From Marseilla massiliensis (GTDB taxonomy: Bacteria; Bacteroidota; Bacteroidia; Bacteroidales; Bacteroidaceae), in the NCBI RefSeq assembly GCF_016899855.1, contig NZ_JACJJG010000002.1, positions 1-64,000 on the forward strand: a DNA stretch of 64,000 nt, in the 5' to 3' direction. The translations under genes were made by a program, and so were the position numbers. The notes beneath the pieces are model-generated. The model made no database searches, had not been told where the DNA came from, and saw only the letters and a program-made list of their open reading frames with translations. Shown here piece by piece: positions 3,116-51,114 of the stretch; the stretch's first letter is position 1, and the number at the start of each line of letters is the position of its first letter.

Positions 3116-4063
3116 ATGGGAAAACATAATTTTGTTACTATTGCCGATTTATCACGTGAAAAAATACTTTATCTGATAAAATCGGCACAGGAGTTTGAAG
3201 CTCACCCAAACAGGGAAATCCTTAAAGGCAAAGTTGTGGCTACACTTTTTTTCGAGCCGTCAACCCGCACACGTCTTAGTTTTGAAACCGCAGCAAACCG
3301 TCTCGGGGCACGAGTAATAGGCTTCACCGACGCTAAAGTGACAAGCGCCACCAAGGGTGAAACACTCAAAGACACAATTCTGATGGTATCCAACTATGCC
3401 GACGTGATTGTAATGCGACACTATATCGAAGGAGCGGCGCAATACGCAAGCGAAGTAGCTCCCGTTCCCATTATAAATGCCGGTGACGGGGCACATCAAC
3501 ATCCGTCACAGTGCATGCTTGACCTTTATTCGATTTACAAGACACAAGGCACCCTTTCCAACCTAAACATCTGCCTGGTGGGAGACTTAAAATATGGCCG
3601 CACCGTGCATTCACTGATAATGGCTATGCGCCACTTCAACCCTACATTCCATTTCATTGCGCCTAAAGAACTCGCTATGCCGGACGAATATAAACTATAT
3701 TGCAGGGATAACGGCATAAAATATATTGAACACACGGAATTTACCGAAGAAACCATAAACCAGGCGGACATACTGTACATGACCCGTGTCCAAAAAGAAC
3801 GCTTTTCTGATTTGATGGAATATGAAAAGGTAAAAAACGTATATATTCTTAAGAATGACATGTTGACCAACGCGCGCGACAACATGAGGATTCTCCATCC
3901 ACTGCCACGAGTCAACGAAATAGAATATGATGTGGACGAGAATCCACACGCATATTATATCCAGCAGGCGCAAAACGGACTTTACGCACGTGAGGCAATA
4001 ATATGCGATGTCCTGGGAATCACATATGACGAAATCGTTAAAGACAAAACTATTATTGACTAA
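3116..4063 (+). CDS. pyrB: Aspartate carbamoyltransferase catalytic subunit
   Basis: Condenses carbamoyl phosphate with aspartate, the committed step of pyrimidine synthesis, in the cytoplasm. 315 residues, close to the 311 of E. coli PyrB. The carbamoyl-phosphate loop [13 protein letters not shown] is complete, and HPSQ with the [13 protein letters not shown] segment and [10 protein letters not shown] are all present. The open frame reaches back to a TTG at 3098, but ATG 3116 (MGKHNFVTI) matches the usual N-terminus. pyrI follows after 16 bp, so the holoenzyme is probably the allosteric PyrB-PyrI type. No exact TAnnTTTG box was found upstream. Confidence 0.96.
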
Positions 4064-47458: not shown

Positions 47459-47488
47459 TTGTCATTTGAAAACAAATCGCTATCTTTG
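47459..47488 (+). promoter_or_regulatory. Surface-protein gene promoter
   Basis: TTG (47459-47461), 19 bp, TATCTTTG (47481-47488). Start expected near 47495, giving a leader of ~128 nt. Confidence 0.75.
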
Positions 47489-47494
47489 CCAAAG

Positions 47495-47622
47495 ATGACC
47501 ATTTGTTGCGTTCAATGGGAAAAGCGGCGCCATTGAGCGTGGTTGGGCGACAGCACACCGACAGGAAGTCAAGATGTAGCCCGTTATCAACCGCCGCTTA
47601 ATCTTAAATCAAACACATTCCT
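47495..47622 (+). promoter_or_regulatory. Structured 5' leader of the surface-protein gene
   Basis: Longer than other leaders in the window (mostly 10-55 nt). AAGCGGCG (47522-47529) pairs with CGCCGCTT (47592-47599), enclosing ~62 nt, and CAATGG/CCATTG form an alternative hairpin with the left arm (47513-47518 with 47530-47535). Such mutually exclusive pairing is what a regulatory leader would show, but no known riboswitch core is recognised. Confidence 0.4.
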
Positions 47623-50600
47623 ATGAGAAAGAGCCTACTATTACGTGCAATGGCCTTAGTGTCAGTTGTTTACGGACTTTCGGGGGGGGGTAAAATCCAT
47701 GCTCAGAACGGACAACCTCACTCTTTAAAGGCCGATGTTACATTCCAAGACGTTACACTTAGTTGGAAATCACCTGCAGACGAGATTGTTTTGCAGTGGC
47801 ATGACGACGAGGATTACAACGGCCTTGACGGTGTATTGAAAGACCCGCAAGGGGCAGTTGAGTTTTATGCGGCAAGCAAGTTTACGGCGGATGAGCTTGC
47901 CCCATATTCAGGACAGACAATTGACGCCGTGCGGTATTGGGAATACCGCGAAGTATTCAAAGCCTCAGTAATTATTTTTGAAGACGGCAAGGCTGTATAT
48001 GAGCAGAACGCCGACTTGTCTGAATTTGAAAAGAATTCGTGGCGTAACGTAAAGTTTGACAAGCCTTACACAATCCCGGAGGGTAAGGAAGTAATGATAG
48101 CAGTGAAGTTTTCGTGCGGACGCAACATGAGCTTCGTGGCTATCTGTGATCGCATACCGACCATCGGCAAAGGTAATCTATACTCATACGACGGCCAAAC
48201 ATGGCACAACGACTGCCCAGGCGACTTCCTCATAACCGCGCTCTTGCACAACGAAGCTACAACAGCACCTACAGGTTACAACGTATACCGTGACGATACA
48301 AAGGTCAATACCGAACTTTTGACCGACGCCACAAGCTATACATTGACTGGCGAGACGGAAGGAACGCATAAATATAAAGTAGGCGCTGTATATACTTCCG
48401 ACGAAAAGATGTCCGCCGAAGTTACTGCAAACGCAATGTCTGTATACAGTTGTCTGCCGTCCGTATCTGGCATTTCAGGCACTGCTGACCATCTTTCAGG
48501 CACGCTAACTTGGGCCACACCGCTTAAACGTGGCAGTGAAATGACTTGGAGCAACAAGGAATTGGCAAACGGAATAGGCGGAACTTCGTCGACAAATCCG
48601 CAGGTATGGATCATCCAACAGTTCTCACCAACAGACCTCGCGGCTTTCCCCGACCACCAGATAACAGCCATCAACTCTTACATCAAGAATGACGGAACAA
48701 TCACGACGGCCACGGCTTTCGTGATGAAAAACGGCGTGATAGACTATTTCGAGGAAATAAGCGCCGACGCAGTGGAGGCCATCAGCCCCGACGCCTGGAA
48801 CAAGTTTACGCTCGCAGAGCCGTACAAGATGGAACTGGGCAACGAATACGCCTTCGGCCTTTATTACAAACACACGACGGGCGGACACCCCGTAGGCGTT
48901 GACAACGGCGTCACCGTTGAAGGCAAAGGCAACACATTCTCTACCTCCGGGCCGTCATCAAGCGACTTTGGAAAGAGCGATCCTTACTGGAAAACACTGT
49001 CAAGCGGCGACATTGCAGGCAATTTCATGCTTACGGCCGACGTCGAGGCAATGAGCCCCGAGGCTGCAGAGCCCCAGACTATAGCCGGCTATGACGTTTA
49101 TCGTGACGGTGAAATAATAGCTTCAAACTTGACGGAAACCACATACAAAGATGAGGTGCCAGACCTCGGAACATACACTTATGCCATTGTGGAAAATGGC
49201 GAAAGCGGCGAGAAGTCAGAGCCCGCATCCTTCAATATGACATATACGCTGCCTTCTGAGTACACCGCTCCCGTGATAGTTGACTACGAACAGACTGGCA
49301 AAGACATTTCAATGTCATGGAGCTCGAACGCATATGAAATGAAAAAATACAGCACCGCAACCTACATCGCAGGCTTCGCCGAAGAAATTGCAATGATGTA
49401 TGGAGCAAGGTTTACCGCCGAAGAACTTGCCGACTATGCAGGCTACAAGCTCTATTCGATGACTTTCGGTATCGGCGAAGAACTTGATGCGTTCAGCCTG
49501 AAGGTAATAACAGAAGACGGAGAAGTACTTTATGAAGAACCGTTTGTCAAGGGTGACATCGAGCCCGGATACATTTACACTCTTACTTTTGAGGCTGACA
49601 AAGCCATAAAAATACCTGAAGGCAAGGACATTTACCTCGCTTATGATGCCACGTTGCCCGCAGGAGTGTCAGCGATACTGCTCGACGGTGGTCCCGAAGT
49701 CAATGGCGGAGCCGTTGTCAACCTGACCGGCGGCACGGGTCCATGGCTCAATCTCGGCACCATTGCCTCTGACTTTGCCGGCACGAATATCGTCATCAGC
49801 GCACTGGCTGTGGCAGACAATGCGAGCCAAAGCATGGCCAAGGCCCAGGCCGTACGCCTTAACGGCACGAAGCTTGACGGCCAAAGAATAGAGAAACTTG
49901 CTGCGGCAAAGATACGCAACGTCAATCTTGACGATGCAACCTTTGGCGTAGAACCGCTTATGAAGCAGGCAAAAACTCCGGCGAAATCCGCAGAAAAGCC
50001 TGTGGCAAAGAGCTATCGAATATACAGCAACGGCGAAATAGTGACTGAGACCGAAGCAACGGAATACACTACGACGTTGACCGACTACGGCGTATTCGAC
50101 TATTACATAACCACCGTATATGAAAACGGTTGGGAGTCGCCGGCGAGCGACGTGATGCGATTCACCAACACCATAGCACAGCGCACTGAAGCGCCCTACG
50201 ACCTGAAAGGAACGCCAGACGGCAAGAACCTGAACCTGACGTGGAAGCCAGTGTCCTCTGCGCCAGTGTTGACCTACAACACAGGCGAAGGTACGCTGAG
50301 AGGCATAGCAATGACCGGCAGTAGCGTTATCGAAAGTTACGTTGCTGTGAAATTCCCGGCATCAGAGATAGCCGATAAAGTAGGACAAGAGGTGTCACAC
50401 ATCACTTTCGGACTATATGAAAACGTTGCACTTACATTGTCCGTTTATGTCATGTATGGTGAGAATATTATTTACATGCAGGACGTAGATCCGTCAACTC
50501 TCGGCGAAAGGTTCACGACTGTGCGTCTTGACAAACCCGTGCCAGTTATTGCAGGGCAAGACCTGTCAGTGGGCTATTTCATCACATATAATTCAGGAGG

Positions 50601-51114
50601 CCATCCTTTACTTGGCTATGAAGGAGTAACGGTGACACCATATTACAGCGACCTCATCTCGTCATCGGCAACTCCTGATTACTGGAGATCGCTTACAGAA
50701 AACTACGGCTACGCCTGGAACTGGGCGATTTCTGCCACACTGAAGACGGCAGACCAGCAGCTTGAACCGCTGAAAGCCAAAGCTGCTGGCGACGAAGGCA
50801 TAACTTACACTGTCTACAGAGACGGTACACCTGTGCAGACAGGTATAACCGCTACCGAATTTGTTGTTGAGAATGCGGCGGAGGGAGTATACACCGTTAC
50901 CGCAACAGTTGACGGTGACGAGTCAGCCGAGTCCAACTCTGTAAATTACAGCACGCCAACCGGCATCGATGACGTGACAACAGCAGATGTCGACAGCCTC
51001 AAGCGTGGCCCGGTTTATACCGTTGACGGACGCATGGTGAACAGTGACGGCGACCTCAAAAAATTACCAAAGGGCATTTATATCATGGACGGGAAGAAGT
51101 TTATTGTCAAGTAA
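47623..51114 (+). CDS. Large secreted multi-domain surface protein with a poly-G tract
   Basis: 1163 residues. Signal peptide about residues 1-28 (MRKSLLLRAMALVSVVYG ... HAQ). Four homologous beta-rich modules of ~100 residues (about 83-165, 326-425, 581-680, 905-985) with a shared K/RFTADELAxYxGxxI pattern (ASKFTADELAPYSGQTI, ARFTAEELADYAGYKL), each followed by an FnIII-like segment starting GYNVYRD/GYDVYRD/YRIYSNG/YTVYRDG (about 213, 487, 796, 1060). The C-terminus (YTVDGRMVNSDGDL ... GIYIMDGKKFIVK) resembles the sorting tails of T9SS cargo. Nine G (47682-47690) lie in codons 20-23, in frame. Not an enzyme that I recognise; adhesion or glycan binding is possible. Own promoter, hairpin terminator behind. 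Confidence 0.82.
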   Translation: MRKSLLLRAMALVSVVYGLSGGGKIHAQNGQPHSLKADVTFQDVTLSWKSPADEIVLQWHDDEDYNGLDGVLKDPQGAVEFYAASKFTADELAPYSGQTIDAVRYWEYREVFKASVIIFEDGKAVYEQNADLSEFEKNSWRNVKFDKPYTIPEGKEVMIAVKFSCGRNMSFVAICDRIPTIGKGNLYSYDGQTWHNDCPGDFLITALLHNEATTAPTGYNVYRDDTKVNTELLTDATSYTLTGETEGTHKYKVGAVYTSDEKMSAEVTANAMSVYSCLPSVSGISGTADHLSGTLTWATPLKRGSEMTWSNKELANGIGGTSSTNPQVWIIQQFSPTDLAAFPDHQITAINSYIKNDGTITTATAFVMKNGVIDYFEEISADAVEAISPDAWNKFTLAEPYKMELGNEYAFGLYYKHTTGGHPVGVDNGVTVEGKGNTFSTSGPSSSDFGKSDPYWKTLSSGDIAGNFMLTADVEAMSPEAAEPQTIAGYDVYRDGEIIASNLTETTYKDEVPDLGTYTYAIVENGESGEKSEPASFNMTYTLPSEYTAPVIVDYEQTGKDISMSWSSNAYEMKKYSTATYIAGFAEEIAMMYGARFTAEELADYAGYKLYSMTFGIGEELDAFSLKVITEDGEVLYEEPFVKGDIEPGYIYTLTFEADKAIKIPEGKDIYLAYDATLPAGVSAILLDGGPEVNGGAVVNLTGGTGPWLNLGTIASDFAGTNIVISALAVADNASQSMAKAQAVRLNGTKLDGQRIEKLAAAKIRNVNLDDATFGVEPLMKQAKTPAKSAEKPVAKSYRIYSNGEIVTETEATEYTTTLTDYGVFDYYITTVYENGWESPASDVMRFTNTIAQRTEAPYDLKGTPDGKNLNLTWKPVSSAPVLTYNTGEGTLRGIAMTGSSVIESYVAVKFPASEIADKVGQEVSHITFGLYENVALTLSVYVMYGENIIYMQDVDPSTLGERFTTVRLDKPVPVIAGQDLSVGYFITYNSGGHPLLGYEGVTVTPYYSDLISSSATPDYWRSLTENYGYAWNWAISATLKTADQQLEPLKAKAAGDEGITYTVYRDGTPVQTGITATEFVVENAAEGVYTVTATVDGDESAESNSVNYSTPTGIDDVTTADVDSLKRGPVYTVDGRMVNSDGDLKKLPKGIYIMDGKKFIVK
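47682..47690 (+). repeat. Homopolymer G9 inside the signal peptide codons
   Basis: TCG GGG GGG GGT is in frame with nine G. Ten G give TAA immediately after the tract; eight G give a frame that stops at TAA after 11 further codons. Either change would end translation before residue 40. Confidence 0.9.

Follow-up and report, generated by a model that had tools for sequence, protein, structure and literature searches.

A putative poly-G contingency tract in the signal-peptide codons of a large secreted protein of Marseilla massiliensis, with similar tracts elsewhere in the genus

Nine consecutive G residues within the signal-peptide codons of a 1163-codon open reading frame (ORF) of M. massiliensis most probably form a simple-sequence contingency tract, at which slippage would switch the encoded protein ON and OFF, and which is one of a set of poly-G runs in this genome. 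The window, i.e., the whole stretch of DNA that was analysed, is 64,000 nucleotides long, and all positions given without a contig refer to it. The following features of the locus are considered below:

47481..47488, plus strand: TATCTTTG, which fits TAnnTTTG; putative promoter 5' of the gene
47623..51114, plus strand: ORF for a secreted protein of 1163 amino acids, open in the present assembly
47623..47706, plus strand: predicted signal peptide MRKSLLLRAMALVSVVYGLSGGGKIHAQ, with putative cleavage after AQ
47682..47690, plus strand: putative contingency tract G9, codons 20-23 of the ORF
47691..47693, plus strand: TAA abutting G9, a stop in one off-frame and currently read as part of GGT AAA
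47726..47728, plus strand: TAA closing the other off-frame, read directly from the sequence
47704..50757, plus strand: total span of four related, beta-rich repeat modules (self-comparison, alignment and a model of the first module)
48244..48417, plus strand: match to PF18370 (rhamnogalacturonan lyase beta-sheet domain), the best of three matching stretches
50884..51111, plus strand: C-terminal tail of about 75 amino acids, apparently sorting-domain-like and common to many ORFs of the genus

The initial annotation, which had described nine consecutive in-frame G residues in signal-peptide codons, was confirmed: the run occupies 47682-47690 (codons 20-23) and is read as TCG GGG GGG GGT AAA. The off-frame stops it had named also agree with the sequence, since one additional base brings the TAA at 47691-47693 into frame and the loss of one base leads to the TAA at 47726-47728. 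As expected of a contingency locus, the run falls in the range of at least 8-9 bases, lies early (codons 20-23 of 1163), and a change of one base in either direction would abolish the product. In the proposed mechanism, strand slippage during replication would add or remove single G residues in the tract; with the present nine, the 1163-residue protein is in frame (ON), and any length change other than a multiple of three would stop translation just after the tract and preclude export (OFF). The switch would act on the export of a large repeat protein. Replication slippage is the simplest account, as for the poly-G tracts of Neisseria and Campylobacter (PMC5953494, PMC6321876 and PMC11868660). 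Such phase variation is well supported by analogy and putative at the window locus; we infer frequent, reversible slippage, its occurrence at 47682-47690, and a surface location of the protein. Speaking against this reading, runs of G8-G9 are near the lower length limit for such calls, the cut-offs being at least 9 for Neisseria (PMC5953494) and at least 7 for Campylobacter (PMC6321876) in the available portions of these two reports.

The four modules lie approximately at residues 28-208, 290-475, 555-715 and 855-1045. The whole protein had no match in NCBIfam or in a sequence search of the PDB. A structure model of the first module reached a mean pLDDT of 76.7, and Foldseek returned weak matches to beta-sandwich and FN3 folds (TM of at most 0.43 among the best 50); owing to this poor superposition, a function was not read from the fold. 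Many weak matches to ORFs of the genus were found over approximately residues 1055-1163. The C-terminal sorting domain expected of type IX secretion cargo had no match in NCBIfam or Pfam, and the tail is therefore claimed as a resemblance only. The TAnnTTTG box upstream of the gene is what we take to be the Bacteroidetes -7 element. Rfam searches of the 5' region gave no match, and the folding energy of the 5' untranslated region was no better than that of shuffled sequences. A hairpin in this region (47508-47540) has a differently spelled counterpart in Xylanibacter rarus (locus L055, about 2880-2920).

The length of the run was compared with several expectations. Runs of G in the window number 28 of length four, four of length five, one of six and one of nine, and runs of C number 69, 14 and one for lengths four, five and six. 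The longest G or C run apart from G9 is thus six, in keeping with the earlier remark that no comparable run was noticed elsewhere in the coding sequences of the window. Against dinucleotide shuffles the run is not unusual (three G7 matches against 2.52 expected; at least three in 41 of 100 shuffles), yet such shuffles overpredict long G runs for the window. From an order-4 Markov model, for which the training sequence was the window with G9 included, 0.05 runs of at least nine are expected per window. GGG is a rare glycine codon here (18 of 324), and when synonymous codons were drawn according to the pooled usage of seven window genes, a run of at least nine arose at the G9 site at a frequency of 0.00085 (20,000 draws); none of 2000 draws had such a run at any place in the gene. 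A chance origin was rejected on the synonymous-codon value of 0.00085, with the dinucleotide shuffle dissenting.

Two orthologues of the gene were found. The only one from a named species belongs to X. rarus (Prevotellaceae; 64% amino acid identity in the best segment), hence the designation of the present genome as Prevotella-type, and the other, G088, was found among 398 genus genomes (51% identity over residues 6-325). Both share the AQ end of the signal peptide. Conservation in homologues, on which the initial annotation had made its reading depend, was contradicted by these sequences: the poly-G tract is absent from both, and at its place the X. rarus gene is G-rich, of equal length and interrupted. 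Because neither orthologue carries it, the tract is lineage-specific, either gained here or lost there. Homologues with interrupted or absent tracts are likewise described for phase-variable genes of Campylobacter in the portion of PMC6321876 available. The interrupted, equally long G-rich stretch in X. rarus and the borderline length of G9 would also suit a static in-frame glycine stretch, built by point substitutions in G-rich codons and slipping too rarely to matter. Such a stretch would account for the fact that 32 of 41 signal-peptide tracts in the genus are in frame as well. We nevertheless consider it unlikely, given the rarity of GGG and the probability of 0.00085, the recurrence of the tract in unrelated signal peptides, and a G8/G9 difference that leaves the frame broken in one of two 99.9% identical copies of another gene.

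The genome of the window (G000), a draft assembly in 321 contigs, contains 17 runs of at least eight G: twelve of eight, four of nine and one of 11. Thirteen of the 17 are directly followed by TAA, and the reversed G8TAA control has one match; among the 15 GGGGGGTAA sites, two have fewer than eight G, i.e., shorter runs before TAA are rare. On one contig, a GT4 glycosyltransferase contains a tract, a hexapeptide transferase carries one at its start, and another separates a GT4 protein from a second GT4 domain. On another contig, the frame of a glycosyltransferase breaks at G8. The best match of its 5' piece is Gly_transf_sug (PF04488), with weaker matches to two further glycosyltransferase models, of which PF12919 is above its cut-off, and its downstream piece had no Pfam match; we regard it as a glycosyltransferase of the ordinary capsule type. 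The same contig has an ORF, weakly matched by Hexapep, that terminates at a G7 run. A SusC-type receptor, a second TonB-type protein and a Porph_ging protein are each preceded by a tract near a TAnnTTTG box, and such a tract also lies 385 bases before a DUF3575 protein. The longest of the 17 runs, G11TAA (contig 111, 26301-26311; locus L142, 3002-3012), lies near the 5' end, in the coding sequence or the leader, of a regulator with Reg_prop, Y_Y_Y and AraC-type HTH matches. One G8 run falls within an AraC-type regulator, and for several runs a target is not evident.

A tally of 127 of the 299 genus genomes searched, including that of the window, comprised 272 G8TAA and 79 control matches among 1478 runs; in the other 126 genomes, TAA follows 0.18 of the runs of at least eight G, versus 0.05 for the control. 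Some genus genomes are rich in G runs without this signature (1 of 67 runs in G083 and 0 of 61 in G121), and in X. rarus, G7TAA occurs twice and the control once. A phylum-wide signature was rejected on the basis of 197 genomes, all from other orders and classes of the phylum: 104 G8TAA matches were found versus 102 control matches, with any G8TAA in 71 of the genomes and five at most.

Four genomes were examined completely, with 17 (G000), 27 (G006), 15 (G089) and 12 (G102) runs. Of these 71 runs, 34 are not wholly inside an ORF of at least 100 codons by a mechanical rule. A TAnnTTTG box lies within 30 bases on one side of 14 of the 34 (6 of 11 in G000, 1 of 8 in G006, 4 of 8 in G089 and 3 of 7 in G102), compared with 419 of 6269 control intergenic positions, and 21 of the 34 are followed by TAA. 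A stop codon after coding tracts fits an immediate off-frame stop, or the G-N, G-S and G-K residues with which signal peptides end. The intergenic tracts, of which 21 of 34 carry TAA, are explained by neither; selection of TAA simply as a stop was accordingly kept for coding tracts only. Behind intergenic tracts TAA has no stop function, and the element may thus have an origin or maintenance mechanism of its own. We therefore entertain, tentatively and as the less probable option, a lineage-level contingency element (G8-11 plus TAA) deployed in signal peptides, glycan-enzyme genes, regulators and promoters, perhaps with its own origin or maintenance, in place of runs that arose independently. 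By eye, GTTAA/TTAAC was seen in an A/T-rich stretch 5-15 bases before the C that precedes several G8-10TAA runs (e.g., loci L063, L087, L089 and L099); this stretch may be an upstream promoter element.

Tracts of this kind recur in signal peptides. A search of 329 genus genomes for MK codons followed after 18-48 bases by G8 gave matches in 105 of them. By a hydropathy rule, 42 of 116 sites among the matches listed, from 27 genomes, were signal-peptide-like, versus 47 of 575 background MK segments taken from the window and the fetched loci (p about 3e-17). In secreted and TonB-type proteins of the genus, the tract recurrently lies where the hydrophobic core of the signal peptide ends. Forty of the genus sites together with the window's own gave 41 signal-peptide tracts with flanks, of which 32 are in frame, six are broken (including L311, doubtful as a signal peptide) and three are undecidable. 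The excess in frame over one third implies either strong selection for ON or modest or slow slippage. A stop codon follows 26 of the 41 (TAA in 18, TAG in seven and TGA in one). Fourteen tract proteins were compared with Pfam: four are SusC-type receptors, four have repeat or small domains above or near the cut-offs (Big_2, InlB-like, beta-flower and DUF5013), five were unmatched, and one is a glycan ATP-grasp protein that is not a signal-peptide case. In G006, seven of 27 runs were assigned by eye to signal peptides, one of them frame-broken. Two further observations concern individual runs. Contigs 62 and 77 of G297 (loci L135 and L218) share a 1273-base repeat, 95.6% identical, with the same G9TAA in both copies, and contig 93 of G138 (4023-4054) has a run of at least 21 G right after ATGAAAAAAAT, possibly an assembly or sequencing artefact.

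A difference in tract length between near-identical copies was found at another locus of the genus. All-against-all BLAST of the retrieved loci revealed a single near-identical pair, G101 and G299, whose 3349 aligned bases are 99.9% identical and differ in length by one indel only, a single G in a signal-peptide tract (nine vs eight G; BLAST agrees). The SusC-type ORF of G299 extends through 1068 codons until the stretch ends, and that of G101 meets a stop after 19 codons, with 1032 codons open in another frame. At this sister locus, a length difference in near-identical copies, as expected of a contingency tract, is seen.

Frame breaks at shared positions were found among more distant homologues. 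In an FrhB-type gene (PF04432), the tract occupies one place, between GTTAA and TAAAATG, in four genomes whose loci are only about 70% identical at the DNA level. The frame is open in G082 (nine G) and broken in the other three: G089 (eight G), G352 (one A and seven G) and G309 (one C and nine G). What separates G089 from G352 is a substitution and not an indel; the others differ in length. The two halves in G089 and G309 match consecutive parts of PF04432. Among FrhB-type genes without the tract, that of G188 is broken by another stop and those of G001, G233, G216 and G193 are open. Acyl_transf_3 proteins of G149 and G006 are split exactly at the tract (profile positions 2-61 then 69-324, and 3-61 then 71-321, respectively). 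In contig 25 of G006 (L110, 5067-5075), G9TAA lies inside a protein kinase domain whose frame ends there, at profile position 191 of 263, and the BspA-type leucine-rich-repeat region that follows is in another frame. Tracts also seem to break two genes of G089, one for a Branch-type enzyme and one for a C5 DNA methyltransferase; no Pfam match was obtained for the upstream piece of the former and the downstream piece of the latter. The PF00145 frame of this methyltransferase (contig 11; L133, and L214 about 2721-2755, on two strands) ends near a nine-base G/C run, about 270 bases from which lies a G8TAA tract; the C5 cytosine DNA methyltransferase is a candidate phase-variable methyltransferase.

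Since G000 and many of the genus genomes are drafts, in which homopolymer errors give false frame breaks, assembly or sequencing artefacts (homopolymer miscounts or poly-G artefacts) might have produced the tract or the breaks, and the single G8/G9 pair could be such a case. We regard this as very improbable, because the directional TAA (13 vs 1) and the shared tract positions (a single site common to homologues from four genomes, and a single profile position common to two acyltransferases) are not expected from artefacts; moreover, the frame in the window is open through 1163 codons. Long homopolymers can also cause transcriptional slippage, and a polymerase or ribosome slipping on the G run could give mixed frames in every cell from a fixed DNA sequence. 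Such RNA-level slippage is, in our judgement, slightly less probable still: lengths differ in the DNA itself, between near-identical copies and between homologues, and 34 of the 71 runs in the four genomes lie outside mechanically defined ORFs. Phase variation by replication slippage, as the initial annotation had proposed, is supported: the layout is as described, recurs in the genus and is accompanied by a G8/G9 pair at another gene, with the reservation that the tract itself is not conserved.

Tracts are also clustered among glycan-type genes. Contig 107 of G006 (loci L199 and L200, about 8.1-37.6 kb) carries eight of the 27 runs of at least eight G of this genome in about 30 kb of glycan-type genes. 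Pfam matches there comprise three hexapeptide transferases, Acyl_transf_3, MBOAT, a TupA-like protein, a sugar-transfer ATP-grasp and a weak GNAT; two upstream pieces had no Pfam match. The frame is broken at five of the eight runs, intact at two and undecided at one, which makes this region a candidate multi-gene phase-variable glycan locus. In contig 49 of G006, two consecutive GT2 genes each have a tract after codon 14, both in frame.

If this reading is true, SusC-type receptors, secreted repeat proteins and glycan enzymes would be switchable by single-base slippage in Prevotella-type bacteria; such switching could be read directly in metagenomes that already exist, and it would be relevant to phage escape, immune recognition and strain phenotypes. 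Switches of this kind are already known. No report of a poly-G set in Prevotella-type bacteria was found in the literature searched, which was open literature screened by title and the start of the abstract, with subscription journals and preprints outside its scope.

In Neisseria, the tract of pilC lies in the signal-peptide region, and in Campylobacter, surface glycan genes dominate the poly-G phasome. The resemblance to pilC and the Neisseria phasome, as far as the available text of PMC5953494 describes the latter, lies in a poly-G/C tract within a reading frame that determines ON and OFF by frame; a meningococcal genome has on average 15.4 poly-G tracts of at least nine (modal length nine), and poly-G/C targets include surface and glycosylation genes. 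However, the gene is unrelated and belongs to another phylum, 12 of the 17 runs of at least eight are exactly eight here, and tracts recur in many different signal peptides, including those of SusC-type receptors. The Campylobacter phasome, according to the accessible part of PMC6321876, is likewise dominated by poly-G, with 77% of tracts in reading frames and with homologues that lack the tract; in contrast to the shorter runs found here, tract lengths peak at 9 and 10, and that part of the text mentions no TAA signature. Within the Bacteroidota, a putative phase variation mechanism has been mentioned for the FSD genes of Ornithobacterium hominis, without being named in the text available (PMC13183296). 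In the Bacteroidales, phase variation is known mainly as DNA inversion, which acts on SusC/SusD and capsule loci in Bacteroides (PMC11868660, as available in part). The phylum and the class of targets (SusC-type receptors and surface polysaccharides) are therefore the same, whereas the means differ: site-specific invertases operate there, and a single-base change in tract length would do so here.
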